From a virus, in the IMG/VR virus record IMGVR_UViG_3300027906_000078, positions 1 to 31,890 of that record: DNA of 31,890 bases. One strand, 5' to 3'. Numbering within the stretch: the stretch's first letter is position 1; the number at the start of each line of letters is the position of its first letter. Under the pieces are notes generated by a model. That model ran no database searches, was not told the DNA's origin, and saw only the letters and a list, made by a program, of their open reading frames with translations. Position numbers and translations under genes: made by a program. This document shows, piece by piece, positions 2,983 through 31,890 of the stretch.

Positions 2983-2988
2983 AGATGT

Positions 2989-9113: not shown

Positions 9114-9117
9114 TACT

Positions 9118-9795
9118 ATGGCTACTGTAAGATTTTCCGATTCACTATGTGAAGACATTCGTAACAATGCGAGGGCTATGTTTAGCAAATCCATTGAAGA
9201 TGCTAAGGCGGATGTACCTGCACACTGGGCTGATAAAATGTATCAGTCCTTTTTCCCTTCTGACGTTATCTCTAAGTTCAATTCGTTGCCAGATTACGCA
9301 ATGAAAGAAGAATTAATGGTGGCCTTTGCAGGGTTCTCTAATGCACCAGAGGATGTATTCCAGACCGCTGAGTTTTCTAGTAAAGCCTATAAATGTGATG
9401 AGATACAGCTACACTTTAGTAAACCTATGCGTTGGCCTCATCAGTTTCAAGCAGAGGTTACAGGTTTCGAAGCAAACTGGCGGTCTGGCAAAGCTGACTT
9501 TCGTGACAGCCGTTGGGATTGGCTCAAGCCTGAGTTCAAAGAGTATGTTCGTAAGATATTCGAAGTGGAAGCTAAGCAAGCGAAGTTCCTAGAGGGTATC
9601 AAAACACTTATGAAAACATATTCTACGTTGGCTCCTGCACTGAAGGCTTTCCCTGCACTGTGGGACTTAGTTCCTGATGAAGCTAAGGAACGTCACAAGA
9701 AGATAGTAGAACGCAAGAAGGCCGAGGTAGATGTCGATAGTATGGACATCAAGGGCATGACTGCGGCAGTAACATTTTCCAAACTAACGAGGTAA
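9118..9795 (+). CDS. Hypothetical phage protein, possibly Nmad5-like, 225 aa
   Basis: A 225-aa soluble protein starting MATVRFSDSLCEDIRNNARAMF. The N-terminal helix, the following DKMYQSFFP segment and the C-terminal part (TLAPALKAFPALWDLVPDEAKERH) loosely resemble phage proteins labelled nucleotide-modification-associated domain 5. I am not sure of this, and there is no evidence here of DNA modification. It follows the VWA gene by four bases, so it is in the same transcript. Otherwise function unknown. Confidence 0.6.
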   Translation: MATVRFSDSLCEDIRNNARAMFSKSIEDAKADVPAHWADKMYQSFFPSDVISKFNSLPDYAMKEELMVAFAGFSNAPEDVFQTAEFSSKAYKCDEIQLHFSKPMRWPHQFQAEVTGFEANWRSGKADFRDSRWDWLKPEFKEYVRKIFEVEAKQAKFLEGIKTLMKTYSTLAPALKAFPALWDLVPDEAKERHKKIVERKKAEVDVDSMDIKGMTAAVTFSKLTR

Positions 9796-9797
9796 CA

Positions 9798-10172
9798 ATG
9801 CGACAAGAACAATGGATTGCACTGAAAACTGTGCTTAAACACACTAAGGATTACGCTGAACAACAGCGTAAGAAAGACTGTTCATCAAGGGCTGAGCTTA
9901 ATCAGCATTGGTCAAACAGCCACCAGTCATTGTCAGATATGGTTGAGTTCCACAAGGGGGAATACATCTACCATTCTATTCTGAACAATGTCGATATAGA
10001 TGAGATTATTTTGGCTGTAGAAGCCTATAATCCTTCGGTCGATAGGACTGTATTGGAAACGCAAGACCCTGAGTTGGGTTCGCTTAACGATAAGGAAAGA
10101 ATATACAAGCGAGAACGTTTATTAGATAAAATTAAATTACTTCAAAATCATTGGGTATGGAGGAAAATATGA
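9798..10172 (+). CDS. Hypothetical protein, 124 aa
   Basis: A 124-aa mostly helical charged protein without a recognised domain. The ATG two bases after the previous stop has GAGGTAAC upstream. It ends in an ATGA overlap with the next gene. The many Lys, Gln and Glu residues suggest a soluble partner protein. The operon position links it to the MoxR-VWA group or to the following unknown protein, but no function can be given. Confidence 0.6.
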   Translation: MRQEQWIALKTVLKHTKDYAEQQRKKDCSSRAELNQHWSNSHQSLSDMVEFHKGEYIYHSILNNVDIDEIILAVEAYNPSVDRTVLETQDPELGSLNDKERIYKRERLLDKIKLLQNHWVWRKI

Positions 10173-11092
10173 GTAGTTGGTTAGAGATAACACCTAAAGG
10201 TGTAGACAGTTATGAAAAAGCCGAGAGGCTATGGTCAAGGGTGCGTAGTCCACACAAGGGCAAGCCTATCACTGGTTGGTTGCGTATGTTCAAGGAGGGT
10301 AACGGCACGTTTGTATTCAAGTTGCAGAGTTACTCTGATACGCCAGACCTATGTCGGCTGACGCCTGACAACAGGCTGACGTTCGTTGCCTCGGAAGGTT
10401 GTTTCAAATCTCATTCCCAAACGCTAGTGTCATCACTACACAGGTGGCTACCGCTTACCACTGTGCGTCATAAGACAGGTCTTTATCGCATGGCAGGTAC
10501 AGACATTGTCCAGAAGAAGATGCAGAAAGCATACGACGATGACCCTGATAACAAGGGCAATACAGGCAACTACTCACCGCATTACTGGGAGATGTATGGT
10601 CACTATATGCCAGTGATGAGAGCAGAAGCGTACTACTTCCAAGGCATTGAGTTCGATATGATAAGCGGTGAGTGCCTTAATCCACAGCCAGATATAAAAA
10701 TGATAGAGAAACCAGAAGAACGTAAGAAGTGGCGCAGAGCATTGACTGCTTTCAAGAAAGGTATCAAGGCTCGTGTCAGAGTTCATGCGTTTGATGGCAT
10801 CATTGATAAAATGTGGGCAGAGCGTAACACTAAAGACAGGTGGGATTGGCAACAACCACAATGGGATTCAAACCAATGGCTAGACTTACTTGAGAAGTGC
10901 ATACGTCAGAACGAGTTCCCACCTGAGTTACTCATGGGGCTAGCACAGACTACGACTGACGGTTACTACATGAGTAGCAAACCAGAAGGTAGTCATATAC
11001 TCAAAGCATTAGAGTATGTATGTAATGGGCAGAGTATTGCATTGCGTAGACGCTTCAATGTGTTTGAAGAAGAACCCCAGAAGGCGGCGTAA
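10169..11092 (+). CDS. Hypothetical protein, 307 aa
   Basis: A 307-aa Trp- and Lys-rich protein not matched to a family I know. The ATG at 10169 overlaps the preceding stop (ATGA) and has GGAGG five bases upstream, which decides the start over an in-frame TTG at 10151. The N-terminal half alternates strands and loops (WLRMFKEGNGTFVFKLQSY); the C-terminal half is helical. No Walker motif, no obvious nuclease motif and no membrane segment are seen. Expressed with the MoxR-VWA operon. Confidence 0.7.
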   Translation: MSSWLEITPKGVDSYEKAERLWSRVRSPHKGKPITGWLRMFKEGNGTFVFKLQSYSDTPDLCRLTPDNRLTFVASEGCFKSHSQTLVSSLHRWLPLTTVRHKTGLYRMAGTDIVQKKMQKAYDDDPDNKGNTGNYSPHYWEMYGHYMPVMRAEAYYFQGIEFDMISGECLNPQPDIKMIEKPEERKKWRRALTAFKKGIKARVRVHAFDGIIDKMWAERNTKDRWDWQQPQWDSNQWLDLLEKCIRQNEFPPELLMGLAQTTTDGYYMSSKPEGSHILKALEYVCNGQSIALRRRFNVFEEEPQKAA

Positions 11093-11093
11093 C

Positions 11094-11330
11094 ATGATCG
11101 AATATTTCACTGCTCTTGTAATCGCATATACTCTACAAGGTTACGACATTGAAACTGCTGTATGGTTCAAGAACGAAAGACATTGTTTAAAAGCCATGAA
11201 TAACAGAAGTGCAGATATGATGTATGATTACCTATATGAGTTGTACGGTAATGAAATTTCTATGGGCTGTTACCCATCCGATAAAATATCGAAATTACCA
11301 AGACCAAAGATTAGACCAGAGAGGAATTAA
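11094..11330 (+). CDS. Small protein with hydrophobic N-terminus, 78 aa
   Basis: A 78-aa protein beginning MIEYFTALVIAYTLQGYD. The hydrophobic N-terminus could be a weak signal or membrane anchor, and there are two Cys (in HCLKAM and GCYP). The C-terminus is basic and Pro-rich. The start is placed at the ATG one base after the previous stop; the frame is open further upstream but only within the preceding gene. The ribosome binding site is weak (AAGGCGG). Function unknown. Confidence 0.5.
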   Translation: MIEYFTALVIAYTLQGYDIETAVWFKNERHCLKAMNNRSADMMYDYLYELYGNEISMGCYPSDKISKLPRPKIRPERN

Positions 11331-11331
11331 A

Positions 11332-11481
11332 ATGGTAGGAACCCCTAGGAAGCAGAGTAGGAAGGCTACTAAAAGCCAGAAGAAAACTGCTGTACTCGAC
11401 AGGTTTACTATAAAGCCTGATAAATCTGCGTTACTTGCAAGGATGAAAAAGGTAGCTGACGAAAGGAGGGCTAAAGAATGA
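11332..11481 (+). CDS. Small basic protein, 49 aa
   Basis: A 49-aa protein with a strongly basic N-terminus (TPRKQSRKATKSQKKT) and a helical C-terminus. The ATG at 11332 follows GAGAGGA, and the stop overlaps the next ATG as ATGA, indicating coupling with the Ntn-hydrolase gene. The frame is open further upstream only within the preceding gene. Its basic character suggests nucleic-acid binding or an adaptor for the hydrolase, neither of which can be shown here. Confidence 0.55.
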   Translation: MVGTPRKQSRKATKSQKKTAVLDRFTIKPDKSALLARMKKVADERRAKE

Positions 11482-11996
11482 CAGTTGTAGTATGGGATGG
11501 AAAGACCTTAGCCACTGATAGGCAAGCCAATGATGGCTCTATGAAGTGGGAGGCAGAGAAGGCTTGGTATGTAGCCTATAAAGTAGAGAAATATATGAAA
11601 GGCGCTACCAACAATCCTTTGTATGTTAACAAACACGCTATCGTATCAGGCATTGGAGTACTGGGTAGTATACTAAATATGCGAGATTGGTTCGTGAGTG
11701 GTGCCGATCCTGCGAAGCTAGATGTACAGCCCAACTCAGCAGAACTTATTGTCGTGTCTGAAAAAGGTCTGGCTGTCTGGTCAGCTAATGGAACATCCGT
11801 GGAGCTATCAGCACCTATGGCTTTCGGAGAAGGTAGGGAGTATGCGCTTGGCGCAATGGCAATGGGAGCGACAGCACAAGAGGCTGTGCAGATTGCTAAT
11901 GAATATTCTTTACATTGTGGCAAAGGTGTATCATGCTATACCTTACAAGGTAGTAAGGTTCTAGGAGGAATAAATGGCGAACCGAAGAAAGTCTAA
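11478..11996 (+). CDS. Proteasome beta / HslV-like Ntn hydrolase
   Basis: A 172-aa protein with the layout of proteasome-type Ntn hydrolases. Met is followed by Thr2, the expected nucleophile after Met removal, in TVVVWDG; next come TLATDRQA, which gives the conserved Asp, and a Gly-rich IVSGIGVLGS where HslV and proteasome beta subunits have a similar strand-turn. Length is close to HslV (about 175 aa). No HslU-like unfoldase gene is adjacent; the only AAA+ ATPase of this operon is the MoxR protein. The ATG overlaps the previous stop (ATGA). It could be a self-compartmentalising peptidase or an inactive relative; fold assignment is fairly confident, activity is not. Confidence 0.75.
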   Translation: MTVVVWDGKTLATDRQANDGSMKWEAEKAWYVAYKVEKYMKGATNNPLYVNKHAIVSGIGVLGSILNMRDWFVSGADPAKLDVQPNSAELIVVSEKGLAVWSANGTSVELSAPMAFGEGREYALGAMAMGATAQEAVQIANEYSLHCGKGVSCYTLQGSKVLGGINGEPKKV

Positions 11997-12531
11997 GAAA
12001 GAAAAGGTATGGGCTTACCTGTTGAAAAACAAACTAGCCACTGGCAAAGAAGTAGCTAGAGCTACAGGTGTTTCGTATACCTATGTTAATAAACTAATGA
12101 AAGGTATAGGTACACCGAGGGAGGTATTCGAACAGGAAGAAGAGTTCTCAATAGACGAGATACTTGAACCTAATAAGGGCGAAGATTATCCAAAGCCTAT
12201 GGGTAGGGCTGAGATCCTACAGGAAGCAACACGCCTGACAACAGATGCTCGTGAGAAAACACACGGCACTATGGCCGATAACCTTGGTTGTATTGCTGAC
12301 TTGTGGAACGCATATCTCAAGGGCAGATGGCATGGGCTAAACGGTAGTGATGTTGCTCTAATGATGACACTAGTCAAAGTGTCTCGTGCTAAAAACAATC
12401 CATGTCATGCAGATAACTGGGTAGATGGCGCAGGTTATATGGCTTGCGGTGGAGAGATTGGCACAGAGCTTGTTGAGTTCGCAGACTTAACCAACGATAT
12501 GACACCGCTTGCAGAAGGGCAGGGTCTATAG
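11974..12531 (+). CDS. HTH plus DUF6378-like protein, 185 aa
   Basis: The N-terminus (residues 8-45) is a helix-turn-helix of the winged type (TGKEVARATGVSYTYVNKLM), suggesting DNA binding. The C-terminus (about 78-162) has the pattern of DUF6378, common in phages: RAEILQEATRLTT, ADNLGCIADLWNAYL, SDVALMMTLVKVSRAKNNP, NWVDGAGYMA. The function of that domain is not established. The gene starts 23 bases inside the preceding one, with TAGGAGGAATAA before the ATG, and ends just before the DNA polymerase gene. It is a candidate regulator for the switch into replication. Confidence 0.75.
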   Translation: MANRRKSKKEKVWAYLLKNKLATGKEVARATGVSYTYVNKLMKGIGTPREVFEQEEEFSIDEILEPNKGEDYPKPMGRAEILQEATRLTTDAREKTHGTMADNLGCIADLWNAYLKGRWHGLNGSDVALMMTLVKVSRAKNNPCHADNWVDGAGYMACGGEIGTELVEFADLTNDMTPLAEGQGL

Positions 12532-12532
12532 C

Positions 12533-14407
12533 ATGGACATCGTCACCATTGATTTTGAAACTTATTACGATAGGGAATATTCGCTGTCTAAAATGACAAC
12601 GGAAGCCTATGTTCGTGACCCTCGCTTTGAGGTGATAGGTGTATGCGTCAAGGTGAACGACTTTCCTACCGATTGGTATAGTGGTGATAATGTGGGTAAG
12701 TTTCTTAACTCGTTAGACTATTCTGACAAGGCGATACTTGCTCACAACACTGCGTTTGATGGGGCTATCTTGTCATGGCACTATGGAATCAAGCCTAAGT
12801 TCTGGTTCGATACCATGTCTATGGCAAGACCCTTACACAATGCTACAGTAGGTGGCTCACTGAAAGCACTAGCCTCTTACTACAAGTTAGGTGAGAAAGG
12901 TGATGAAGTGTTCAATAACATGGGCCGTCACAAGAAGGACTTCACACCAGAACAACTTGACAGGTATGCTGCGTACTGCATCAAGGACGTAGACCTGACG
13001 TATCAACTATTCAAAAAATTAAAGGTGGGTTTTCCTGTGTCTGAACTAATGGTTATTGACCAGACGCTAAGGATGTATACCCAACCTGTCATACAACTCG
13101 ACACGGAAGTGCTTGCACAGCACTTAGAGAAAGTAAAAGCAGACAAGCGAAAGCTGATTGAGGACTTGGCACTCAAGGGATTGGGTGAGGAGAAGGTAAA
13201 GAAAGCTCTCATGTCTAATCAAATATTTGCTAAGCTACTTACTACGGTAGGTGTTGAACCCCCCATGAAAACAAGTCTACGCACAGGTAAGGAAACATAT
13301 GCCTTTGCTAAGACAGATAAAGAGTTCACTGCTTTACTTGACCATCCAGACCCACGCATACAAAACCTAGTGGCGGCAAGGTTAGGTACTAAATCTACAA
13401 TCGAAGAGACACGCACTGAGAACCTGATGAGGGTGGCTGAGCGTGGCGCATTACCTATCATGCTTAACTATTATGGCGCACATACAGGTAGGTTTTCTGG
13501 TGGAGATAAACTTAACCTACAGAACCTACCACGCAACGGAAAGATACGAAGCGCACTGACTGCGCCCATAGGAGAGATACTAGTAGCTTGTGATTCGTCA
13601 CAGATAGAAGCTCGTATGGTTGCTTACATCGCAGGTCAATATGATCTAGTGCAAGCGTTCAAAGAAGGGCGTGATGTTTACAGTGAGTTCGCATCTGAGG
13701 TCTATGGTAAGACAGTTACTAAGGCTGACAAGATTGAACGGTTCGTTGGTAAGACCTGTATACTTGGGTTAGGTTATGGTATGGGGCATGTAAAGTTCCG
13801 TAACACACTTGCGCTTGGGCAGGGAGGTATCTCTGTTGATATAGATGAGAACGAAGCACAACGTATTGTTAGATTGTATCGACAGAAGAACCACAAGATT
13901 GTATCCCTCTGGAATAAATGCGGTCATGCTTTGACTACTATGGTAGCAGGAGGAAGCGGCAATATTACTGACCTATTACCATACGACAACAACGGCATAA
14001 TTTTACCCAGTGGTTTACGCATAAAGTATAATGCGCTAAGGCAGACACCAGATGGCTTTGAGTATATCGCAGACGCACGAACTTATAAGAAACTAGTCAA
14101 AGCCAGAGTGACTACAGGTGAGGAGATAACTATAGATTGGACACGCATCTATGGTGGGAAGGTAACAGAGAACGTAGTCCAAGCATTAGCTAGGATTGTG
14201 GTCGCAGAACAAATGACATCTATCGGGCAGTCATACCATGTTGCGTTTCAAGTACATGACGAGATCATCATAAGCTGCCTGGAAGAGCAAAAGACACACG
14301 CACAGGAACTTGTTGAGAGGAGAATGTCTACGCCTCCCAGCTGGGCACAGGATTTACCTGTTGCTTGTGAGTCGGGCATCGGCTATAACTATGGTGATGC
14401 TAAGTAA
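12533..14407 (+). CDS. polA: DNA polymerase, family A, with 3'-5' exonuclease
   Basis: The replicative polymerase, 624 aa. The exonuclease domain is intact: Exo I in VTIDFETYYD (Asp7, Glu9), Exo II in AHNTAFDGAI, Exo III in YCIKDVDLTY. In the polymerase domain motif A is LVACDSSQIEAR, motif B is the O-helix R403-K407-L411-Y415-G416, and motif C is FQVHDEI. There is no 5'-3' exonuclease domain, as usual for T7-like phages. The residue equivalent to E. coli Phe762 is Leu411. The ATG at 12533 puts Exo I at the N-terminus as expected; an in-frame TTG at 12509 would overlap the previous gene. First gene of the replication module. Confidence 0.95.
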   Translation: MDIVTIDFETYYDREYSLSKMTTEAYVRDPRFEVIGVCVKVNDFPTDWYSGDNVGKFLNSLDYSDKAILAHNTAFDGAILSWHYGIKPKFWFDTMSMARPLHNATVGGSLKALASYYKLGEKGDEVFNNMGRHKKDFTPEQLDRYAAYCIKDVDLTYQLFKKLKVGFPVSELMVIDQTLRMYTQPVIQLDTEVLAQHLEKVKADKRKLIEDLALKGLGEEKVKKALMSNQIFAKLLTTVGVEPPMKTSLRTGKETYAFAKTDKEFTALLDHPDPRIQNLVAARLGTKSTIEETRTENLMRVAERGALPIMLNYYGAHTGRFSGGDKLNLQNLPRNGKIRSALTAPIGEILVACDSSQIEARMVAYIAGQYDLVQAFKEGRDVYSEFASEVYGKTVTKADKIERFVGKTCILGLGYGMGHVKFRNTLALGQGGISVDIDENEAQRIVRLYRQKNHKIVSLWNKCGHALTTMVAGGSGNITDLLPYDNNGIILPSGLRIKYNALRQTPDGFEYIADARTYKKLVKARVTTGEEITIDWTRIYGGKVTENVVQALARIVVAEQMTSIGQSYHVAFQVHDEIIISCLEEQKTHAQELVERRMSTPPSWAQDLPVACESGIGYNYGDAK

Positions 14408-19191: not shown

Positions 19192-22050
19192 ATGGATACG
19201 CTGAAATTTTTACAGCGAGTCCTACCGTCCGAAGGGTATTATGTAACTACACTTATAGCTCCTGATGGCAAAGTCCAACAAGGGTTTTTTGATACGGTAG
19301 AGGAACTCGCTACGGCCTGTAAAAGGCTATCAACATCACAGCCAGATAAGAACGTCTATTTCGCTGTGTCTGCTTTCGGTAACAAGGGCAATAGAAAGCA
19401 AGACAATGTACGAGCGACAAAGATAGTAGCTGTTGATGTGGATTGTGGAGAGGGTAAGCCTTTCCCCACATGGAAAGAAGGGCTAGTTGCACTGGGTAAA
19501 TTTGTTTCTGAGATGAGACTACCCAAGCCACTAATCATACACTCTGGTAATGGACTGCATGTCTACTGGGTGCTTGATGAAGAACTAGAACCAGATAATT
19601 GGAAGCCTTTAGCCGAGGCTATGAAGCAAGCCTGTGTAGCAAAAGGGTTTGATGTTGACCCTGCTGTACCTGCTGATAGCGCAAGAGTACTGCGCCCTGT
19701 TGGTACGACAAACATAAAGGGTGGCAACGAAGTAAAGCTACTTGTTGACGCAGAACCTATAAGCGTTTCAACTCTGAGGGATTGTCTAAGTTATTACTTC
19801 CGAGCAGCGCCTGGGACTAGTGAAGGTCATACTCGTGAGAACTCGTTGCTAGATAATCTAGCAGTAAAACAGGAGTTTCCACCTGCTGTTGGGTCAGTGG
19901 TGGCTAGCAAATGTAAACAGATAGAGTGGGCTATAGCTAACCAGAACGAGGTCGATGAGCCACTATGGTACAACCTTATTGGTGTAGCCGCACACTGTAT
20001 TAATCCAGAGGACACAGCAAAAGAATGGAGTAGCCAACATCCCGCGTATGATGAGAAGGCAACCATACAGAAACTTGCTCACTGGAAAGAGTCAACTACT
20101 GGGCCAACAACTTGTGCGAAGTTTGAAGCAGATAGACCGAACGGATGTAGAGGTTGTAAGTTCAAGGGTAAGATTGGTTCACCTACTAGACTTGGGGTGC
20201 AGTATCAGGAAGTAGCTGTTCCACAGGAAGCGTTAGATAAAGTAGCTAACTCTGTGCCTATGCCTAAACCTTTCAAGCGTACAAAGGATGGCATCAAAGT
20301 AACCATAGACGATACAGATATTGATGTATGTAAGTTCGACATCTATCCAGTTGGCTATGGGTATGATGAGTCACTGGGTTATGAGACTGTTAGGTTTCAT
20401 TGGAACAGACCGCATATGGGGTGGCAAGAAATCACATTGAGGCAGGCGCACTTAGCGGAGGGCAGTCGAGAGTTTGCAACGGCAATCGCAGACCAAGGTA
20501 TTGTCCTATATAACAAAAGACAAACGGAGTATTTTCAACTTATGATGCGGTCATATATGGAAGAGCTTAGACAAATCCGTGCCATGACCAATCTCTACTC
20601 TACTATGGGATGGAAGGAAAACAATACGGCATTTGTTCTAGGTGACACAGTCATTAAGCGTGAGGCTAATGGGGTAGTGTCAGAAGAAACTATAAAGCTA
20701 TCGTCTGGAGTACAAAGACAAGGCAGTGAACTATACCAGACTAAGGGTACACTGGAAGGATGGGCATCACTAACATCCGTACTAGAGAAGGCAGATCTAA
20801 AAGCACATATGTTTACACTAGGCGTGGCTTTCTCTGCCCCACTTTATAACTTCACTGGACTCAAAGGACTGACAGTGTCGCTCTACGGTGCGACAGGTGG
20901 AGGTAAAACTCTAGCACAGTACTGGGCGCAGTCGATATACGGCAACCCTGACAAGCTACACTTTGCGGCTAAGTATACACAGAACAGCTTGTTCTCACGA
21001 CTTGGTACATACGCTAACCTTCCGCTGACCATAGACGAAGTCACTATGATGAATGATAAAGAGGTCGGAGACTTCTGCTATTGGGTAACTCAGGGGCGAG
21101 ACAAAGCTAGGCTAAACCGCAACGCAGAAGAACGAGATGCAAAGACTTGGGCTACACCAGTGGTAGTATCCACCAACAAGTCTCTGCAAAGTAAACTGAT
21201 TGCGTCTGGCTTGGACACAGATGCACAGATGGCTAGACTACTGGAGGTTACAGTACCACAGAGTCCTATCTTTATTAGGAACTCAGAGGCAGGGCGTAAG
21301 ATATACGAAGCAATACACTCTAACTATGGTCACGCAGGTAGGGTCTTTATAAAGAACCTTATGGAGATGGGCGAAGATGGCATACAAGCCGCCATAGCAG
21401 AGGCATCACAGACATTTACTAGTAAGTATAAAGCAAAGTTTAGTGGCGAAGAACGCTACTGGGAACAGTCTATTGTGTTAGCTGATTTAGGTATGAAGTT
21501 AGCGAATGACTGGGGGCTTCTACAATTTGATTATCGACAAGCAACCGAGTGGGTACTGTCACAGATCGGAGCTATCCGCAGAACAGTACAAGAGAACCAA
21601 GTTGATTCGTTCGATCTTATTGCAGAGTATATGGCTGACAGTGCAGATGCACAGGTAACAGTCATGCACACAGCAGGGCAGAAACCACAGCCTGATTACA
21701 GCCGTATGCCACGAGGAGATATTAGAGTTCGTCTTGATGTGTTCCGTAAATCTGCGGCTGACCCATTCGATAAGGGTACTATGATGATTGACCGCACTCA
21801 CTTCCGCAAGTGGTTGTCGGTTCGAGGAGCTGACTACAAGTCATTCAAACAGGAACTTACTGTGGAGAATGTAGTAGCCACACCTAAATCAGAGAAGGCA
21901 TCGCTAGGTAAAGACACACCGATTAAGCTAGCGCAGTCGTATGTCATAGGCTTTAACCTAACGCATCCACGTTTTCAGAGCTTGCTAGAGAACGCTGATG
22001 TTACCGCTGATGATATGGCATACGGTCAGATGCAAGTAGTACAGGACTAG
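19192..22050 (+). CDS. Primase-polymerase with DUF927-like helicase domain
   Basis: A 952-aa fusion. The N-terminal archaeo-eukaryotic primase (PrimPol) domain has VAVDVDCG (Asp82, Asp84), SGNGLHVYW (118-126) and RVLRPVGTTN. A Cys cluster follows (C308, C319, C322), probably zinc-binding. The C-terminal ATPase resembles DUF927, with Walker A GATGGGKT at 566-573, Walker B LTIDEV (D615, E616) and a sensor strand VVVSTN. It would both prime and unwind at the fork, which explains the absence of DnaB/DnaG-like genes in the module. GAAGGTAAC precedes the ATG. Its stop codon interlocks with that of the convergent giant gene within one CTAG. Confidence 0.88.
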   Translation: MDTLKFLQRVLPSEGYYVTTLIAPDGKVQQGFFDTVEELATACKRLSTSQPDKNVYFAVSAFGNKGNRKQDNVRATKIVAVDVDCGEGKPFPTWKEGLVALGKFVSEMRLPKPLIIHSGNGLHVYWVLDEELEPDNWKPLAEAMKQACVAKGFDVDPAVPADSARVLRPVGTTNIKGGNEVKLLVDAEPISVSTLRDCLSYYFRAAPGTSEGHTRENSLLDNLAVKQEFPPAVGSVVASKCKQIEWAIANQNEVDEPLWYNLIGVAAHCINPEDTAKEWSSQHPAYDEKATIQKLAHWKESTTGPTTCAKFEADRPNGCRGCKFKGKIGSPTRLGVQYQEVAVPQEALDKVANSVPMPKPFKRTKDGIKVTIDDTDIDVCKFDIYPVGYGYDESLGYETVRFHWNRPHMGWQEITLRQAHLAEGSREFATAIADQGIVLYNKRQTEYFQLMMRSYMEELRQIRAMTNLYSTMGWKENNTAFVLGDTVIKREANGVVSEETIKLSSGVQRQGSELYQTKGTLEGWASLTSVLEKADLKAHMFTLGVAFSAPLYNFTGLKGLTVSLYGATGGGKTLAQYWAQSIYGNPDKLHFAAKYTQNSLFSRLGTYANLPLTIDEVTMMNDKEVGDFCYWVTQGRDKARLNRNAEERDAKTWATPVVVSTNKSLQSKLIASGLDTDAQMARLLEVTVPQSPIFIRNSEAGRKIYEAIHSNYGHAGRVFIKNLMEMGEDGIQAAIAEASQTFTSKYKAKFSGEERYWEQSIVLADLGMKLANDWGLLQFDYRQATEWVLSQIGAIRRTVQENQVDSFDLIAEYMADSADAQVTVMHTAGQKPQPDYSRMPRGDIRVRLDVFRKSAADPFDKGTMMIDRTHFRKWLSVRGADYKSFKQELTVENVVATPKSEKASLGKDTPIKLAQSYVIGFNLTHPRFQSLLENADVTADDMAYGQMQVVQD

Positions 22051-25000
22051 AACTTCTCATCATTCAAAGCGTAGATACGCATTAGCTCTTCCAAGTCGTT
22101 ACGGATAGCGGTTGGCGCAGTCTTCAGATATCTCTGTCCAGTAGGCATAGCCGCAGACTTAGCTGACCGCTTAGCTCGTTTCTCAAAGTCCTTGAACTCA
22201 AAAGCTGTTCCTCTGTGAATTATATTCCAATCCCTAACCATACCTACAACCTCTCGCATACGAGCGCGGTCTTTCTCGACATAGGCTTTGACGTAAGCGG
22301 CAGTGTAATCTCCACGAAGATACTTAACATACTCAGCTTTAAACTTACCTAGCCGTACTATGTCGTTCTCTCTAGTAGCTACGGATGGGTAGAAACCTGC
22401 GGCACGCAGAGCTATCTGCGCCCAATCAGCAGATGGATCAATCACTTTACCCTGCGAGTTTGTTACTGCGCCAGTATCAAAGTAAGTGTGAGCATCAATG
22501 ACACCTCGTAATCCGGCGACGGGGAGGTTTCGTAAAGACCCAGTGAAACTTGATGTCTGGTCTCTGAGTCCAACTACTCCGGCAGCATACTTGCTAAAGC
22601 TACCTGCTGTTACAAACGCTCCTTCAAGACCTGAGTATACTGGCCCAAAGAAGTTCGTTAATTCCCTAGACGAATCAGCACCTGCTCTTAGTGCGCCAGT
22701 TAAAGGAATAAGATCACCAAAACCTAAACGAGTGGAGAATGTACCTGCTGATATTTGATCAAGAAATCCTCTCATCATCCACTTTGCAGAGCCGGGGGCT
22801 AAGCCCTCAAACAACCTGATAACTTCTTCCTCTACGCTTGCCTTCTTGATACCGAAGAGTTGGAGCAGAGTGTCAATCAAATCAGCTAGGTCATCTGCGA
22901 ATGGTAGACCTTTTATTCCAGACATAAGGAATAGCATACCTAAGAACATCAATCTACCCTGCGGACTCATGCCTTTCATCATCTGTATGGTGATGATTGA
23001 GAACTGTTTGTATATGAACAAGTACTGACCTACGTTACCACGAGCCATCTCTGGGCGATTAAACATACCGTATTCACCCTGAGAAGTATTCACCGCAGTA
23101 CGAGCAAACTCAGTGGCTTCCGAATTTATTCGACCTTCTAGATCTAGGAATTTTTCTTGTACCCCTCTTTGCTCTCTAAGGCTTTCTCCTAAGGCTTCTA
23201 GCTGAGTGTATTCTGGTGAGTTTGCTATTGCTCTTTTCTTATGCAGACGGAAAGCTGCTAGTGCAGTGGATCTTCTGTTAAGTTGTTCTGTATAAGAGAA
23301 CATCGACATCCATGCTTTTACTGCGCCCTGTAGTTTGTTGCTGTGAATACCGCCTCTAGCTGTGCCTATTAAGGCGTTAGCCTGTGCAGCCTGTAGAACA
23401 CCTTCAGATGTAGCGCTTGCTAAGAACTTTGCTTCGTCGTTAGTAATCCCATACTTATCCAATAGCTGTTGTTTGCCGATAATATTAGTGATGTATGTCG
23501 CATCAGACAATTTAAAATCGAACATATTTCTAGCTGCTAGTTGCATCTCTAGCGCAGCGTTACTGATACCAAATCCGCCCCCGAAGCCTCTAGCTTCATT
23601 GTAGGTAGCTAAGTAAGGCACACTATGTGTCATCATTGAGACCGTGTTTATAAATGCGGTTGCAACTGAACCGCCCAACTGAGCAACAACTGTCCACATC
23701 TTCAGACGAGAGCCTGTTTCACCTGACAACAAGTCCTCGGTTGAGTCATTAATGTTAGCTACATCAGCGTAGAACTGTTGAAGTCCTAATGCAGCAGCCC
23801 TGTAGTCTTCACCTCTACCGAGGTTCTTCATAGGCTTACCTGTAACTCTGTTAATAGCCTGATTTCTACCATCACCTGCCATATACTGATACATGTAAGC
23901 ATACTTATCGTATTCAGTATTTGCTCTACGCATATCCTCTGGATCTAGGTCAGTGCGCTGTGTCTGTGCATACAGCTTCCTTAGTTTTGATTCATCGCCA
24001 CGCCAGAAACTATCTCGTAACATGATGTTGTTTAGGCGGTGTCGATAGAAAACCTGCCCTGAGATGTGTCCTTGTGTCTCAAGGTATTCTGCTGTGCTAC
24101 GAACTACATCTTCATCCCAACCTGGAACACCTGTTCTTTCTAAACTTCTACGAGCACGGTCAGTCTGCTTAGTCAAAGCCTCTGTAATACGTTCTAGTTC
24201 AGTTGGGTTAATGTTTACATCAAGCCGTGCTAGTGTAGCCGTAAAGTCCTCAAGGCTAAACTGTTGTCCTAAGACAGAACCCTGACGCTTCTTCTCGGTA
24301 ATTGCGCGGAAGGTTATGGTTCGTTCCTGTCCGGTATCATCTTCAATGGTAAACTCTGTACCGCCAAACTCATCGTTAAGGTTCTTCGCTATAACTCTAG
24401 CATCATCACGCCCCTGAGCTTGGTAGTATGGAAGAACAGATTTCCAAATGTCATTTAGTTTTACTTCTTCGTTGTTATCATTATATGCCACGAGTCTTAT
24501 CTGGTGGTCGCCTCGTCGTGTAAACGGCACATACGATGTCATAATAGTCCGCTTGGCGTTAAACTGTGCGTTTGCCATATTTACTTCTAGTAGATACAGA
24601 TTGCCAATGGCAGAGGTAATTAAGTTTGCCTGCTCTTTAGAATAGTTCTTATCTGACAGAGAATCTAAACCATCTATGATAGGCTGGAAGTCTACCCCTT
24701 GAAACTTAGCTGTTTTTTCGCGTGCTTCTTTCCAATCTTGTACTTTATCTTTATTAAACAATGCACGGTTAATCTCTCTTAGAAAGTCTCTTGCGTCTTG
24801 CAGTGACTCTTGATTGTAAGTTAATGTACCGCCCTCGTTCTTTGCGTCCTTCTGATAGATGTCCACATAGCGATCCATAACACGTCGCATAACAGAAACG
24901 TCTTGGTCAGACATTCTGTAGGATTCCTTGAACGATGATATTGTTGCGTCTTTCTGAGCAATGGCACCTTCTATTGTAGATCGAACCACATCGAGTGCAG

Positions 25001-28000
25001 ATTGGTTTACAGCCTCACGTTGCTCATTATAGATTCTCCACACCCTATCAGTAATAGGAACCCCTAGATCGAACGGTTTAGTTTCAACCGCTCCTGTTTG
25101 TGGATTTTCTACTGATGTAATTACGTTACCGTTAGCAAAATCTTCACGGCTTACTTGACCTACTTGTTTTGCTGCTTCGAACAACTCACGGTGGATACCT
25201 ACTTTACCGTCTTGGATAAAGACAAGGTCTTTGAGCTGAGTCTCACCGTCAAGGTCTGTCACTGACAAGTCTCTGATTTCAGCGTCTGTTACTTGGTCAG
25301 CTTTATATAGCGCACCGTGAGCTAATAGTTTACCGGCTTGTAGAAGTTCTTCACGAGTTGGCCCGCCCTGTTTGTTACCGTTCTCGTCTGTAAAGCTAAA
25401 GGCAGAGTTAGAGAACGCTGTAAGACTTTCGTAGTTGGAAAGAAAACGTCTGGCACGGTTAGCACGAGCTTGGAATATATTAAACACCTGCTGCAGACCA
25501 TCGCTACGAGTAGCCATATTATCTAACGACTGTACGTTCTCTGCAAGTTTACCAAAGAAAACACCTACATCTGTAATCTTTTCTATATCTTTTAGATCAG
25601 CAATCATCTTCTTGAGTGCACGCATACCACCATAGTTGCCGCTGCGCTTGACGTAAGCATTAGAGTTTAAGGCTCTTGTGGCAACGTCTGCAGTATCTTC
25701 TGCAAGAGAATAACGCACCAACGTGTTGTCACGTTGTAAGCTCTGCAAGTTACGTCCTAGTTCCTGCATTGATACTAGACCGCTACCGCCCTGCAACAAG
25801 TTTCTGCGTGATTGACGTAGCATGTACCTGGCCAGATCATCGGTAAAGTCAAAGCCTAGTTTATTCAGAGCATCTTTGACAGCGTACCAAATCTGTTTAA
25901 TGACGCTGGAGTCTAGGTCAGCGGCTCTGTTTGCCATCTCTTCTTCGATAGCTTCGATACGCTCCATGCCCATCTCGACACGACGATTAACCATTACGCG
26001 CAGACTTGAGTCAGATAGGTACACATTCTCTAGGTTCTTCTCTAGAGTTTTCCTATCCATAAACGCGCCCATGCCAAAGTGACCCATAGCTTCGTGAGCT
26101 ACTACGAACTTGGCTTGCTTCTCTGTCTTAATTCTATCACTAAATATAACAATCTCATCACCTAGCGATACACCTGCAGCAGGAGCATCAGCAAAGTTAG
26201 GTCGTCTTTCAGCTATACGTTTATAAAGCTCTGGGTTAGTACGCAGTAGATCGTTCTGATCTCTAAACACAGATACCTTAGGTTTTACTTTTAGCTTACT
26301 AATAGCTTTGTTTACGATAGCTTGGACACGCAGTTTAGGCAGCGGATTATTAATAGGTGTACCATCTTCCATGAGGAAGAAGCGTCCTGTCTTCTCATCT
26401 GCAGCTTTCATTGCTGCGTCCATTGTATCTGAGTCTTCCTCAACTGCTGGCGCTGCGTTAGTCAGAGGCGCTTGGGCATTACCCATAATAGCCTCGTGTG
26501 GCTTACCTGTAATCTTAACATCTTTAGCAATTCTCTCTACAAGACCACGGCGTGTAGCATATTCATACCACGGCTTAATAGAAGATAGTGAGTCATAGGT
26601 CAGTGCGTATTTGACAAAACGTTTGTCAAGCATTTTTAACTGGCCTTCACTAAAGTCAGATGGTGCTGTAAACGCTTTGTCTACATATGCTTTAGCTCTT
26701 GTTCTGGCAGCTTTTTCATCTACGGCTGCAGCGTTACTGCCTGTAGGTGCAGGTGCCCAGTAAGCTATATCCATAAGATAGTTAGCTTCAGTATCTATAT
26801 CAGATAGAGTTTTACCTTGGTCGTTTTCAAACTCTTCGATTACTTCTAGGATTGCAATCTCTTCGGCGTTCTTCTCAGGGTCTAGAGCTACTTGAACAGT
26901 TCCCCCCTGTACGCTATCTTCCTGCGTACCTTGTTGACTGTCAGCTTCCCTAGTGGCTGCTTCAGCTTCCTCAGCTGCGCTTGCTTTCTTGCGATCTTGC
27001 GCTTCTCTGAGGCGCTCTTTAGACCTATCCTTTCTGGTAGTTCTTTGTTCTTGGGTGTCTGGCTGGCCAGTTCCTGTGCCAACTCCGGCAGATTCTCCAC
27101 CATCCACCTCTGCTGGGCTTTGCTCTTGAACGACATTATCTTGTGCCTCCTGTAGCTTAGCGACTTGCTGCTGTAGTTTATTAACCGCCTCAGCAACAAC
27201 AGGGTCAACTTGAGGCGGAATGTTTAGTTGAGATATATCAACTTGTTGTGGTGTGGTTGTCTCCTCTACCGCCCGGCGTAAGTTAGTTAATGCTTGAGAT
27301 GCAATAGGCTGTATTGCAGCTACTGTAGGTTGGCCACGCTGAGTAAATAATGCTCCTTGACCTGCGGCTCGTGCCTCAGCTGGAGTCATTGGGCGTGCTG
27401 CTTCTTCAGCTGCCTTCTCTGCTTCACGCTCCTGCTTACGGCGTAGACGATTAGCTTTGTTGATTGCTTTCTGTTCCGCTTTGGAAGGTTTTGGGAGCTG
27501 CACTACTCCACGAAACAAATCTAACTGGCGAGGCGGAGCAACAGGAACTGGTACAGTTGGGAGATCCTGAACCGGCGCTGCCACGGGAGGAAGATCTGGC
27601 TGCGTCACGCCTTGCTGCTCCGCCTCATAGGCCGCAATCTCCTCTGCTGCACGCTCTTGTTCAAGAGATGTAAGGAGTTCGCGGTTATTCCGTTCAATCC
27701 GTTGGTTCTCTACCCTTAGCGACTCTGCACGAATGGCTTCATTCTCTGCCTGTAATTGGGCTTGTCTTTCTGCTTCAGCATCAGCCTCTACTTTACGCTG
27801 TGCTGCTTCCTGCATACGTTCTTGCAACAAGTTTGGTTGCTGTTGCGCTGCTGCAGTTCGTTGTATAGTTTTTACTACATCCTGTACAGGTCTAGGATCA
27901 ATAGGTGCAGGCTCTGGCATAGGCGGTGTAGCCGTAGTTCCTTCGCCAAACAGATCAGCTTGTGCGCCTACAGGTGCTACAAGTTCCATCTCCTGCTGCA

Positions 28001-29621
28001 CTGGCTGTGGTTGCGCCATAAGTTGCTGCTGTCCAAACGGCAACTCCATCTGAAATCCTGGCTGTTGTGATGGAATCACAGGCTGATCGAATAGTTCTAA
28101 CTGGTCTACATTACCTACGCCTAGGTTCTGATCTGGAAATAACTCTCCTTGTGTAGGCTCAACAGGCTGCGTTGGCGCAGTACCAAGGTCTGTATCTTCT
28201 GGGAACATCTCCTGCTGTGTTGAACCTTCTGGCATCCCAGGCTCAGCAGGGCTTGCATCTGTATCTTCAGGCGGCGTACCTTGTAGCAGGTCAGCCTCAG
28301 TAGCTTTCTTGAGGTTAGCCACGCCACCGATAGGTGCACCGATAGCAAAGCCTGCGGCAAAAGAGTTAATTAATCTAGCTAGGGTTTCATCGCCCTCGTA
28401 CTCTCGTCCTGTATAAGCGCTTGTTGCACCCATGACGATGGCTTCTTGGCCTGCTTCTGTGACACCTTCTAGTGCGCCACCTACCCCTGCACCTGTAGCT
28501 CCTCTGCGTAGCCTGTTGCCTTTTGACCCTCTTCTTATATTACCGAATATCTTGGCACCTACTACAAACTCAGGGATTGTATCTAATAGAGCATACGGAA
28601 CACCTGCGCTTAACGCAGTCATCTTAGCACCAAAGTCACTGGGGTCTATGCCGCTTTCCAAAAGCTCTGAGTAAACATCAGATGATGCAATACCAAAGTT
28701 GTTTGCGTAGCCTAACGTAACTGCTCCCGCAATGCCTGATGCACGTTTGAGCGTCTTACCCTTGTCAGTCTTTAGGAAGGCTTTGGCCGCTGCCTTGCCG
28801 TCCCTAGCTTTAATTGTTGCATATTCTTCTGCTGCTTCTTTAACAGCTTTTTTAAACGCAGCTTTACCTGTAATACCTGCAATCGTACCGCCTATAGAAC
28901 CTAATCCTGGCCCTGCTGTAGCAGAACCTGCGACAAAACCTATGGCTCCTGCGGCAATAGTCTCAAGAAGCATTGGCCCTTGTGTACCAAGTACACCTAC
29001 GAACCATTCAACTGGGCCTAGGTCTGCATCAGCACCAAACCCAACGTCAGTAAACTCACCTGTAAATGGACTGTTCTTACGGATGTCTTCTTCTGCACGC
29101 TCCATGACACCAAGGCCATACTCATCAGCACCTACCAGTACAGCACCTGCACCGAATAGAGAACGTAGCTGAGCTATACCTGTACTCCAGTTCTCGGCAA
29201 AGCGGCGTTTTAGTGTAGGGTCAGTAATAGATTTAATATATCTACCGTACTCATCTGGCGTTATCTGTTGCCAGCTTCCAGCAGGTGCAGCCTGCCTTGG
29301 CTTATCTAGAAACTCACGAGATTTTACAGCAGCATCAGCGTCGTCAAGATCAAACAATGACCCGTTTACAAACACTTTGTTTTGCTGTGGATCAAATAGA
29401 ACATTAGGGCCAGTTGGGGCAGGACGTTTTACTTCAGGCAGTGCGAACTGAGATATACCTTTATTATACTCAGCATCAATCTCTGTACCAAGTGCTTCTC
29501 TCTTACCTATAAGATTGCCTAGTCCGATATTTGGCGCTGGATCATAGGGATTACCGTAGGGATTTAGATCCATTGCGCCGAGTGTAGAACTACCAAAAGA
29601 TTTAAGTCCTGCTTTTGCCAT
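22047..29621 (-). CDS. Giant polyvalent virion protein with metallopeptidase domain
   Basis: A ~2524-aa protein, nearly a quarter of this window. The ATG at 29621 has GGAG upstream and lies 7 bases after the previous stop; an earlier in-frame start (29678) would overlap that gene. Order seen: short N-terminal region; Gly/Ala-rich hydrophobic segments (about 190-440) that could insert in a membrane; a long Gln/Pro/Glu/Ala-rich linker (about 450-930); a zincin with VVAHEAMGHFGMG (H1176, E1177, H1180); a long helical body; and a C-terminal region typical of PLxRFG/LPD38-bearing polyvalent proteins (RPEMARGNVGQYLFIYKQF, GLPFADDL, FGDLIPLTGAL). Such proteins are packaged and injected with DNA; the peptidase may act on host proteins. 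A second gene is nested in the linker. Confidence 0.85.
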   Translation of the reverse strand: MAKAGLKSFGSSTLGAMDLNPYGNPYDPAPNIGLGNLIGKREALGTEIDAEYNKGISQFALPEVKRPAPTGPNVLFDPQQNKVFVNGSLFDLDDADAAVKSREFLDKPRQAAPAGSWQQITPDEYGRYIKSITDPTLKRRFAENWSTGIAQLRSLFGAGAVLVGADEYGLGVMERAEEDIRKNSPFTGEFTDVGFGADADLGPVEWFVGVLGTQGPMLLETIAAGAIGFVAGSATAGPGLGSIGGTIAGITGKAAFKKAVKEAAEEYATIKARDGKAAAKAFLKTDKGKTLKRASGIAGAVTLGYANNFGIASSDVYSELLESGIDPSDFGAKMTALSAGVPYALLDTIPEFVVGAKIFGNIRRGSKGNRLRRGATGAGVGGALEGVTEAGQEAIVMGATSAYTGREYEGDETLARLINSFAAGFAIGAPIGGVANLKKATEADLLQGTPPEDTDASPAEPGMPEGSTQQEMFPEDTDLGTAPTQPVEPTQGELFPDQNLGVGNVDQLELFDQPVIPSQQPGFQMELPFGQQQLMAQPQPVQQEMELVAPVGAQADLFGEGTTATPPMPEPAPIDPRPVQDVVKTIQRTAAAQQQPNLLQERMQEAAQRKVEADAEAERQAQLQAENEAIRAESLRVENQRIERNNRELLTSLEQERAAEEIAAYEAEQQGVTQPDLPPVAAPVQDLPTVPVPVAPPRQLDLFRGVVQLPKPSKAEQKAINKANRLRRKQEREAEKAAEEAARPMTPAEARAAGQGALFTQRGQPTVAAIQPIASQALTNLRRAVEETTTPQQVDISQLNIPPQVDPVVAEAVNKLQQQVAKLQEAQDNVVQEQSPAEVDGGESAGVGTGTGQPDTQEQRTTRKDRSKERLREAQDRKKASAAEEAEAATREADSQQGTQEDSVQGGTVQVALDPEKNAEEIAILEVIEEFENDQGKTLSDIDTEANYLMDIAYWAPAPTGSNAAAVDEKAARTRAKAYVDKAFTAPSDFSEGQLKMLDKRFVKYALTYDSLSSIKPWYEYATRRGLVERIAKDVKITGKPHEAIMGNAQAPLTNAAPAVEEDSDTMDAAMKAADEKTGRFFLMEDGTPINNPLPKLRVQAIVNKAISKLKVKPKVSVFRDQNDLLRTNPELYKRIAERRPNFADAPAAGVSLGDEIVIFSDRIKTEKQAKFVVAHEAMGHFGMGAFMDRKTLEKNLENVYLSDSSLRVMVNRRVEMGMERIEAIEEEMANRAADLDSSVIKQIWYAVKDALNKLGFDFTDDLARYMLRQSRRNLLQGGSGLVSMQELGRNLQSLQRDNTLVRYSLAEDTADVATRALNSNAYVKRSGNYGGMRALKKMIADLKDIEKITDVGVFFGKLAENVQSLDNMATRSDGLQQVFNIFQARANRARRFLSNYESLTAFSNSAFSFTDENGNKQGGPTREELLQAGKLLAHGALYKADQVTDAEIRDLSVTDLDGETQLKDLVFIQDGKVGIHRELFEAAKQVGQVSREDFANGNVITSVENPQTGAVETKPFDLGVPITDRVWRIYNEQREAVNQSALDVVRSTIEGAIAQKDATISSFKESYRMSDQDVSVMRRVMDRYVDIYQKDAKNEGGTLTYNQESLQDARDFLREINRALFNKDKVQDWKEAREKTAKFQGVDFQPIIDGLDSLSDKNYSKEQANLITSAIGNLYLLEVNMANAQFNAKRTIMTSYVPFTRRGDHQIRLVAYNDNNEEVKLNDIWKSVLPYYQAQGRDDARVIAKNLNDEFGGTEFTIEDDTGQERTITFRAITEKKRQGSVLGQQFSLEDFTATLARLDVNINPTELERITEALTKQTDRARRSLERTGVPGWDEDVVRSTAEYLETQGHISGQVFYRHRLNNIMLRDSFWRGDESKLRKLYAQTQRTDLDPEDMRRANTEYDKYAYMYQYMAGDGRNQAINRVTGKPMKNLGRGEDYRAAALGLQQFYADVANINDSTEDLLSGETGSRLKMWTVVAQLGGSVATAFINTVSMMTHSVPYLATYNEARGFGGGFGISNAALEMQLAARNMFDFKLSDATYITNIIGKQQLLDKYGITNDEAKFLASATSEGVLQAAQANALIGTARGGIHSNKLQGAVKAWMSMFSYTEQLNRRSTALAAFRLHKKRAIANSPEYTQLEALGESLREQRGVQEKFLDLEGRINSEATEFARTAVNTSQGEYGMFNRPEMARGNVGQYLFIYKQFSIITIQMMKGMSPQGRLMFLGMLFLMSGIKGLPFADDLADLIDTLLQLFGIKKASVEEEVIRLFEGLAPGSAKWMMRGFLDQISAGTFSTRLGFGDLIPLTGALRAGADSSRELTNFFGPVYSGLEGAFVTAGSFSKYAAGVVGLRDQTSSFTGSLRNLPVAGLRGVIDAHTYFDTGAVTNSQGKVIDPSADWAQIALRAAGFYPSVATRENDIVRLGKFKAEYVKYLRGDYTAAYVKAYVEKDRARMREVVGMVRDWNIIHRGTAFEFKDFEKRAKRSAKSAAMPTGQRYLKTAPTAIRNDLEELMRIYALNDEKF
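26888..27136 (-). CDS. Nested gene: SKAQQR-type small phage protein, 82 aa, overlapping the giant gene
   Basis: Lies entirely inside the giant gene, same strand, different frame. Its ATG (27136) has a perfect AGGAGG (27151-27146) nine bases upstream. The protein begins MSFKSKAQQRWMVENLPELA and continues with PKNKELPERIGL, then a very basic helix. FKSKAQQR-W/F-M followed by a PEL/PEM helix and K-x-LPER is a pattern I know from small stand-alone phage proteins near structural genes, of unknown function. Such a pattern would not arise by chance in a shadow frame. In the main frame the same bases encode only low-complexity linker (QEQSPAEVDGGES and similar), so the overlap costs the host protein little. 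Confidence 0.85.
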   Translation of the reverse strand: MSFKSKAQQRWMVENLPELAQELASQTPKNKELPERIGLKSASEKRKIARKQAQLRKLKQPLGKLTVNKVRRKIAYRGELFK

Positions 29622-29628
29622 TATTATC

Positions 29629-31890
29629 TCACTCCGATGCGGATTTATATGCTTCCGCTGTTGCGCTTGCGTCTGCACTACCCGTGTTTAACGCCATAGC
29701 TTGTGAAGGACTTAGCGGCGTAAGTTTAGGTCTTACTACCGCTTGACCGTCTACAGTAACTGTGTCGGCTTGCGGCTCTAATAAGAAGTACTGTCCATTA
29801 TCATAGATTAATGCGTACCCATCTCCTAGTGCTTTGAACTCACCCTTGCGTGCTTTTAGCTCTTCAAGGTATGCCTTACCTGCGTTCTCAAGGTTCTTGA
29901 GTTTAAGGTCGCCTAGTAGTTTATCCCGTTGTTTAGTTAGCTCTGCTTCAAGATCAACATTCTTCTCGAACAAGTATGTTTCTTTCTTAGTTTTAGCATC
30001 ACGATACTGTGCGCTGTATGTAGATTGTAGTTTATCTATTAGCTGATTGTAGGTGTAAGTGGCTTGTGTCTGCCCCTGAACTACAACGTCAAACCTACCA
30101 TCAGAACGTGGTACAACTTGAATATCCAAGCCTGAGTAAGCTGACAACACTGCCCCTGCGCGAGCAGTCGAACCGTAGGATAAATCCTGTAGTGCCTGTG
30201 CGCCTTGTACAAACAGCAGTTTGTTATCAAACTCAGCCATCTGTTCAGTAGCTGCTCTTTTTAGCCCTATAGCACCTGGAAACTGTTGGCCATCAGAGGT
30301 AATACCACCTTCTAAAAGAAGAAAGTTTTGCTCGCGTAGTGCTTCTGCTTGCGCTCTAAGCTCATTATATCTAGTTAGGCCACCTGGCTGGATAGCAGCA
30401 ATCTCTGCTAAACGCTCTAGTTCTCTAGCTTTCTGATTGTTTCTTTCTACTCTGCGGTTGATGAGATTAATATTTTCATTGACAGTATCTACAACACGCT
30501 TGCGTTGATCCAAAATGTTTTGGATTTCTATACCAATCTTAGGTGGATCTTGAAGAAACTTAATAATCGTATCATCTTCAGGCTCTACACCATCGTTTGC
30601 AAGAGATGGCGTTTCTTCCCCATCTGAACCTTTTACCACGACCTCAGGTAGTACAACAACTTCAGTAGACGTATCTGTAGACGTATCTGTAGACGTATCT
30701 GTAGATGTGGACGTAGTCGTGTCAGTTTCAGTAGTCTGTGTGCTTGTCGGAGTTACACCAAACTGCGCCCCGTAAGTATTATATATGTGGTTATACAGCG
30801 TGATATACGCACGGCTGTAGTCAGAGTTGGTAATGTTGCCATCGTGAGCTTTTAGTGGACGGCCTTTTTCTAATACAGTATTGGCGTTAGCTTGATACCC
30901 AGCACCCCAGAGGGACTTATCAAGACCGATAGCTTTGTTGTATACAAGCTGAGCAAGGCCACCCATCAAATCGCTAGCAGGAGACTGTGGGCCTTGGCCT
31001 CTGAAGTTTGGCTTACGCATGTTAGAAAACGAAGCAATAGCCAGTTCCATACGCGCTTGGTCAATAGTACCATCTTCACGTTTGAAAGCGTTTGCAATTA
31101 CTGGACGATTAGCAGGATCAGCAAAAAAACTTTTTAGTCTTTCAAACTGGGCTGGCATAACTTGCATACCGCCTTTAGCACCTGCTCTACTGGTATCTTT
31201 GCTTCTACCAAAATCAGATTCAATGCCATAAATTGCAAGCGCAGCAATAGGATCAATACCAAGCTTGTTAGCTAAATCTATAAGCTCTCTAGTCTTGGGT
31301 TTATTTAAAGAATCCGGTAGCGTACTGATTCTACCAGAAATAAGTTTGTCAGTTTGTGCAGTGCTGCTTTGTACAACACGAGAGGTAGTACGCTCATCTC
31401 TTTGATTTATATACTCTAAAGCAAATACCAGTGGATCTTGTTTAGCTATCGGTATAAGGTTTGGGTTGTTATAGAAAAGAGTAAAAGCCTCTTCACTGTT
31501 ATACCAAGAGTGTGCATCACCCTGCTCTTTAGTTACATTCCGAGTACCCATCCCGCCTTTGCGGCGAATACCCGTGCCTTTATAGATGTCTGCAATAGAC
31601 CTCTTCAAATCATTCTGGCGTTTTCTTTCGAGTCTAGCTGCAGAAGATTTACCGCTAGCATCTGGTACAACAGGGCCAGGCATGGGTAGTAAACCTGCTG
31701 TACCTTCAGCAAACGGATCTGCAAGAGTAACAGTTTCAGTCTGCCGCAAAACATCATCAAACGCAGTAGACACATCAGTATCTGTAGTCGTGTCAGTAGT
31801 CGTGTCAGTAGTTGTATCAGTAGTATCCGTAGTCGTGTCAGTAGTTGTATCCGTAGTCTGATCTGTCTTTTTATCTGTGGTCACAGGTGG
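29629..31890 (-). CDS. Virion protein with lytic transglycosylase domain, 5' end beyond the window
   Basis: At least 751 residues; the frame is still open at the right edge, so the true start probably lies outside (the GTG at 31884 has no support). Residue numbers count from that GTG. Asp/Thr repeats at 8-37; a soluble transglycosylase-like domain at about 195-370 with catalytic Glu222 in IYGIESDFGRS and GAKGGMQVMP at 235-244; a second Ser/Thr/Asp repeat (about 389-411); then coiled-coil helices. It probably cuts peptidoglycan locally during DNA ejection, like T7 gp16. It is followed seven bases later by the giant protein, and both are likely internal or ejected proteins. GH23 versus GH103 cannot be settled by eye. 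Confidence 0.85.
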   Translation of the reverse strand, partial: PPVTTDKKTDQTTDTTTDTTTDTTDTTTDTTTDTTTDTDVSTAFDDVLRQTETVTLADPFAEGTAGLLPMPGPVVPDASGKSSAARLERKRQNDLKRSIADIYKGTGIRRKGGMGTRNVTKEQGDAHSWYNSEEAFTLFYNNPNLIPIAKQDPLVFALEYINQRDERTTSRVVQSSTAQTDKLISGRISTLPDSLNKPKTRELIDLANKLGIDPIAALAIYGIESDFGRSKDTSRAGAKGGMQVMPAQFERLKSFFADPANRPVIANAFKREDGTIDQARMELAIASFSNMRKPNFRGQGPQSPASDLMGGLAQLVYNKAIGLDKSLWGAGYQANANTVLEKGRPLKAHDGNITNSDYSRAYITLYNHIYNTYGAQFGVTPTSTQTTETDTTTSTSTDTSTDTSTDTSTEVVVLPEVVVKGSDGEETPSLANDGVEPEDDTIIKFLQDPPKIGIEIQNILDQRKRVVDTVNENINLINRRVERNNQKARELERLAEIAAIQPGGLTRYNELRAQAEALREQNFLLLEGGITSDGQQFPGAIGLKRAATEQMAEFDNKLLFVQGAQALQDLSYGSTARAGAVLSAYSGLDIQVVPRSDGRFDVVVQGQTQATYTYNQLIDKLQSTYSAQYRDAKTKKETYLFEKNVDLEAELTKQRDKLLGDLKLKNLENAGKAYLEELKARKGEFKALGDGYALIYDNGQYFLLEPQADTVTVDGQAVVRPKLTPLSPSQAMALNTGSADASATAEAYKSASE
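30665..30724. repeat. 12-bp tandem repeats encoding D-T-S-T units
   Basis: Three perfect copies of GTAGACGTATCT (30665-30676, 30677-30688, 30689-30700) followed by two diverged units (30701-30712, 30713-30724). On the coding (minus) strand they give an Asp-Thr-Ser-Thr linker. The unit length keeps the frame, so slippage would only lengthen or shorten the linker. Confidence 0.9.
31784..31865. repeat. 12-bp tandem repeats encoding D-T-T-T units
   Basis: About seven units related to GTAGTCGTGTCA (perfect at 31784-31795 and 31796-31807, then variants, one of nine bp). They encode a Thr/Asp-rich stretch of the transglycosylase protein. The unit is a variant of that at 30665-30724, so the two linkers probably share an origin. 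Confidence 0.85.

Follow-up and report, generated by a model that had tools for sequence, protein, structure and literature searches.

Does the 82-codon open reading frame that lies out of frame within the giant polyvalent gene of this virus encode a protein, and if so, which of the two frames came first? The window, i.e. the whole stretch of 31,890 nucleotides analysed here, carries both frames on the same strand (Table 1). We find it very likely that (i) the small frame is a genuine protein-coding gene nested in the +1 frame of a PLxRFG giant, (ii) this small frame is the older of the two, and (iii) it occupies an exchangeable slot; translation of the small gene, the direction of overprinting, the recombination route and the function of the product are inferred.

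Table 1. Positions of the features discussed, numbered along the window.
Feature	Position	Strand	Remarks
Giant polyvalent gene (PLxRFG domain)	22047..29678	minus	ORF 2543 aa; contains the nested gene in +1
Nested small gene	27136 (ATG)..26888 (stop)	minus	82 aa; SKAQQR family, with a weak phrog_1375 match
Shine-Dalgarno AGGAGG	27151-27146	minus	9-base spacer to the nested ATG
Upstream gene, possible internal virion protein	29629..31890	minus	Weak lytic-transglycosylase (SLT) match; open at the record end

The giant matches the NCBIfam model NF032893 (PLxRFG domain-containing protein) with 169 bits and E 1.3e-49, exceeding the curated cut-off of 100 bits. It is a multi-domain protein of ~2,520 aa with a Zn-peptidase-like HExxxH motif, recognised by eye, in addition to the PLxRFG region, and its last ~550 residues resemble the giants of Pseudomonas phage F116 and relatives with ~25% identity. 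Because the alignments of relatives begin at residue 19-20, the ATG at 29621 is the likely start rather than the GTG of the mechanical ORF. Polyvalent proteins have been described as injected with the phage DNA (PMC7824862), and we read the giant of the window as a polyvalent injected protein. The SLT match of the upstream gene (E 0.0042) is under the Pfam curated cut-off.

The nested ORF lies wholly within the giant ORF, and its product is MSFKSKAQQRWMVENLPELAQELASQTPKNKELPERIGLKSASEKRKIARKQAQLRKLKQPLGKLTVNKVRRKIAYRGELFK, with the N-terminus MSFKSKAQQRWM. The original prediction of a complete gene out of frame inside a giant polyvalent gene holds with respect to the ORF and the coding selection acting on it; detection of the product is lacking. 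The predicted AGGAGG nine bases before an ATG and the 82-aa product were likewise confirmed, on the minus strand, as was the claim that the giant frame here encodes only low-complexity linker: the giant-frame residues over the nested gene (NVVQEQSPAEVDGGESAGVGTGTGQPDTQEQ...) form a Q/E/G/T/A-rich linker.

Selection on both reading frames

Taken alone, an open +1 frame of 82-codon length is unremarkable, as shown by shuffling the synonymous codons of the giant: the +1 frame stayed open in 14% of the shuffles, and stayed open with its ATG kept in 5%. The conservation, the ribosome site and the codon-phase pattern of the nested gene are far outside chance. Eleven giants were aligned by codon, and for 13 pairs the giant-frame pS over the nested gene was compared with that in all other alignment windows. 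The nested region ranked lowest of all in 10 of these pairs, and in the remaining three it was among the lowest 1.5%. Between the giant of the window (W) and its relatives, pS in the nested region versus elsewhere was 0.036 versus 0.424 (W/L001), 0.345 versus 0.659 (W/L016) and 0.277 versus 0.682 (W/L020), and overall the diverged W pairs had a giant-frame synonymous divergence of 0.28-0.35 over the nested gene versus 0.66-0.74 elsewhere. The same suppression was observed in other clades (L083/L088, 0.120 versus 0.505; L079/L080, 0.127 versus 0.466; L097/L098, 0.186 versus 0.624).

In most pairs the differences cluster at the first codon position of the giant frame, equivalent to the third of the small frame, and in diverged pairs the small frame has a dN/dS of 0.16-0.39. 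Small-frame pS between W and distant relatives is 0.59-0.69, nearly matching the synonymous divergence of the rest of the gene, and the region is therefore not merely slow or recently exchanged. Small-frame amino-acid identity is 0.55-0.76 versus a maximum of 0.34-0.45 in the synonymous shuffles, and in diverged pairs the giant linker frame is less conserved than the small frame. The dual-coding criterion, i.e. synonymous suppression in the outer frame together with purifying selection in the inner frame, is met. Selection acts on the nested small frame as a coding sequence while the giant frame stays intact, a conclusion reached without expression data.

Very close pairs have too few changes to be informative (W/L002 gives a dN/dS of 1.1, and L077/L078 is not distinctive). 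No synonymous suppression was found in L112/L110 and L093/L090, in which the nested starts are out of register in the pairwise alignment. The giants of L112 and L110 are 86% identical, and the protein divergence in their nested region is higher than in the rest, possibly reflecting slot recombination or misalignment.

Distribution of the nested gene and occupancy of the slot

Searching with the small protein initially returned three relatives, and searching with the giant returned eleven loci; in every one of the eleven loci covering the region, the small ORF lies at the same place and in the same frame. A profile built from giant sequence beyond the downstream end of the slot, which is blind to the small gene, fetched 79 giants, about 16 of which are in records truncated before the slot and cannot be scored. 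By our count of the output, the small gene is present in 45 of the 79, always inside the giant and always in +1, and none of the loci in this set carries a free copy. Other searches gave further nested cases: L029/L030, with a very divergent giant; L035-L037, with giants 26-38% identical; and L049/L015, in which the giant is broken 44 codons past the small gene and its second half follows a set of head/tail genes, 4 kb downstream. In L015, the two ORFs of the split giant span 608-3391 and 7378-13257 with head/tail-type genes between them, and the nested gene is in the N-terminal half. A genome-collection search added two distant giants (L136 and L137). No relative of the nested protein of the window was found among 50,697 phage records, and all nested cases are therefore from uncultured metagenome phages.

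The start signals were surveyed at 45 nested starts, comprising 41 of the SKAQQR family and four of the second family described below. Shine-Dalgarno duplex energy has a mean of -9.5 kcal/mol at these starts versus -2.4 at 1,823 other +1 ATGs (p 7e-28). A start codon is kept at all 45, as ATG except for GTG in three, and the upstream ribosome site is weak in two or three (L035, L127, L130).

The slot is occupied differently in close relatives. Four of the 79 giants (L086, L087, L104 and L117) have another small gene (MPLKKGSSNKVVSANV...) at the same alignment column, in +1 and with its own Shine-Dalgarno; it matches phrog_2423 (E 6e-8), and two more giants (L140 and L141) have a gene of this second family nested in +1. 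The second family is also dual-coding, with L086/L117 differences of 21/4/4 at giant positions 1/2/3 and a pS of 0.082 versus 0.743. L090 (SKAQQR) and L087 (second family) have a nucleotide identity of 84.5% before the slot and 89.7% after it, and have the ribosome-site stretch TCTGAAAAAGGGAGCACC in common; the main differences between them lie in the nested gene and in the ~100 bases that follow. A similar exchange is seen in the more diverged pair L097/L117. L091, which is 93-94% identical to L086, has neither nested gene, and its giant is in frame. Assembly chimaeras are an unlikely source of these slot states because several contigs carry each state, although no read-level data bear on this point. 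Phages without the nested SKAQQR gene had no copy elsewhere in the records searched, which may be incomplete; because the gene is absent in L091 and the phages lacking it carry no other copy, natural absence shows that it is not essential to the phage group.

Other +1 and +2 ORFs in giants without the SKAQQR gene look like chance frames, the second family excepted. In L167 and L168, which are identical, a phrog_2423-like gene (5001-5165) is nested in +1 of a 2536-aa giant that has no similarity to the giant of the window by blastp; this nested pair is a single distinct sequence.

A bolder reading of the slot, which we consider likely, is that the disordered linker serves as a permanent docking site: complete out-of-frame genes with their own ribosome sites would be gained, lost and swapped there by recombination, and would be movable as cassettes.

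Stand-alone relatives, origin and rival explanations

Free SKAQQR relatives were found in L031, L032, L034, L041-L043, L047, L050, L051 and others, including Streptomyces phages, cyanophage P-RSP2 and phage C75C1. Such free genes lie directly behind the portal gene (L034), the terminase gene (L052) or the tail fibre gene (L041 and L043), or near the terminase gene (L045). Similarly, the second family has many free relatives, and these lie directly behind portal genes in L144, L148, L152 and L164. The short free SKAQQR genes of phage C75C1 (L054, 6001-6102) and cyanophage P-RSP2 (L057, 5001 onward) are not annotated as such in the records. In L033 (5001-10145), a 1714-aa ORF carries an SKAQQR protein as an in-frame N-terminal fusion, provided that its ATG is the start.

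The window protein matches phrog_1375 weakly (E 0.004); among its relatives in other phages, nested as well as free, E values run from 1e-4 to 0.02, and two nested ones are without a match. In a 41-sequence alignment, M1, S5, Q8, P17, A20, L33 and P34 are invariant and common to nested and free members. Pfam and NCBIfam searches gave no family for the small protein, and we found nothing on SKAQQR in the open-access literature searched. Weak matches to a transposase (phrog_5389, E 0.11), an antitoxin (phrog_4692, E 0.07) and an ABC transporter (E 0.13) were dismissed. Given that stand-alone relatives occur in unrelated phages, some of them beside portal or terminase genes, we infer that the small frame is likely older than the giant linker frame and that the linker is the overprinted novelty.

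Combining these data, we suggest that ribosomes would initiate separately on the mRNA of the giant at the Shine-Dalgarno of the nested gene, and that giant-frame ribosomes would read the same bases as disordered linker. The giant frame would have been extended through an older small gene, one of a phage family with free members as well, and this would leave a linker slot from which the nested gene may be absent without breaking the giant or in which it may be traded for a PHROG 2423-like gene, presumably by recombination in the slot flanks. The product is predicted to be a small basic helical late protein linked to virion assembly or DNA ejection. By inspection the protein is basic, and its structure model (mean pLDDT 83) has confident helices at 6-15, 17-26 and 42-59 and is confident over the N-terminal ~60 residues. 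A PDB sequence search and Foldseek against the PDB gave no useful match, and the best hits in a viral structure library include only uncharacterised small phage proteins (best E 3e-3). A late role in virion assembly or ejection is suggested by the portal/terminase neighbourhood common to both free families and by the placement inside a polyvalent gene; as an inference from neighbourhood only, it remains a tentative proposal on which, on balance, we would not rely.

Alternatively, the small frame was overprinted de novo in the linker of the giant and the free genes are escaped copies. The family tree, in which most nested copies group together, offers some support for this model. However, the nested copies are not one clade, and at least two label changes are forced by well supported branches, albeit in a short alignment; moreover, free relatives are diverse and occur widely, in Streptomyces phages, in cyanophage P-RSP2 and at terminase/portal loci, the giant linker frame is the less conserved frame in diverged pairs, and a second, unrelated free family is present in the same slot. 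We consider de novo overprinting very unlikely. A conserved RNA or DNA signal rather than a protein, i.e. a translation pause, a frameshift site or a structure, could also be envisaged, as the strong internal Shine-Dalgarno could pause giant-frame ribosomes. This possibility is all but excluded by substitutions that track the small-frame codon phase over 80 codons, likewise in the second family, by the free homologues of the protein, and by the absence, as judged by eye, of a common slippery sequence at the nested starts. The overlap of the two frames on the same strand would also be compatible with the small product being a frameshift variant of the giant instead of a free protein, but the start codon is kept at every nested start surveyed with a clear Shine-Dalgarno at most, no conserved slippery motif is evident by eye at the entry, and the free homologues are stand-alone proteins, leaving hardly any room for this explanation.

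Capture of an older small gene, one of the two origins offered by the original prediction, thus fits better than de novo overprinting. The prediction had also held that SKAQQR-type proteins are normally stand-alone, and the checks it proposed, i.e. homologues as separate genes and synonymous suppression in the giant frame over the small gene, were both positive. Among the observations that would have refuted it, loss of the ATG or AGGAGG in relatives was not borne out, the start and a Shine-Dalgarno-like site being kept where the gene is present, with the site weak in only the two or three cases listed above; and disruption of the small frame with the giant intact was not seen, absences being clean (L091) or replacements (L087) without frame decay.

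Comparison with known systems

The classic precedent is lambda Rz1, located in the +1 frame inside Rz; spanin genes are known in free, overlapped and embedded forms (PMC6139136). As in Rz/Rz1, the +1 frame of a larger phage gene accommodates a complete small gene with its own start, such small genes occur both free and embedded, and gene callers often miss them. Unlike the nested gene described here, Rz1 pairs functionally in lysis with its host Rz, which is a short gene. The nested gene instead lies within the coding sequence of a polyvalent protein of ~2,500 aa and is swapped at its site for an unrelated one, and its product is without lysis signals, the 82-aa sequence having no lipobox or hydrophobic stretch on reading of the sequence only, such that the spanin criterion is not met.

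The host gene meets the family cut-off of the polyvalent PLxRFG giants (NF032893; Iyer et al. 2017, cited in PMC7824862). Neither an out-of-frame gene nested in a PLxRFG giant nor nested-gene swapping came to light in the open-access literature searched, and within that scope the slot exchange of embedded genes is without precedent. The nested gene resembles phrog_1375, of unknown function, in its N-terminal SKAQ.R.M..N.P..A motif, and its free relatives match at E ~1e-4; the window member differs in being longer (82 aa), in its extra basic helical C-terminus and in its weak match. Similarly, the alternative slot occupant matches the profile of phrog_2423, also of unknown function, and differs from other members in being nested in +1 of the giant in the six loci named above.

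The usual picture of embedded overlapping genes is that double constraint locks them in place. Here, the same position in related giants has one small gene, an unrelated other one, or neither, and the outer frame is intact. The slot system provides direct test material for the origin and movement of overlapping genes, and it suggests that small genes thrown out by standard annotation lie hidden in giant phage genes.
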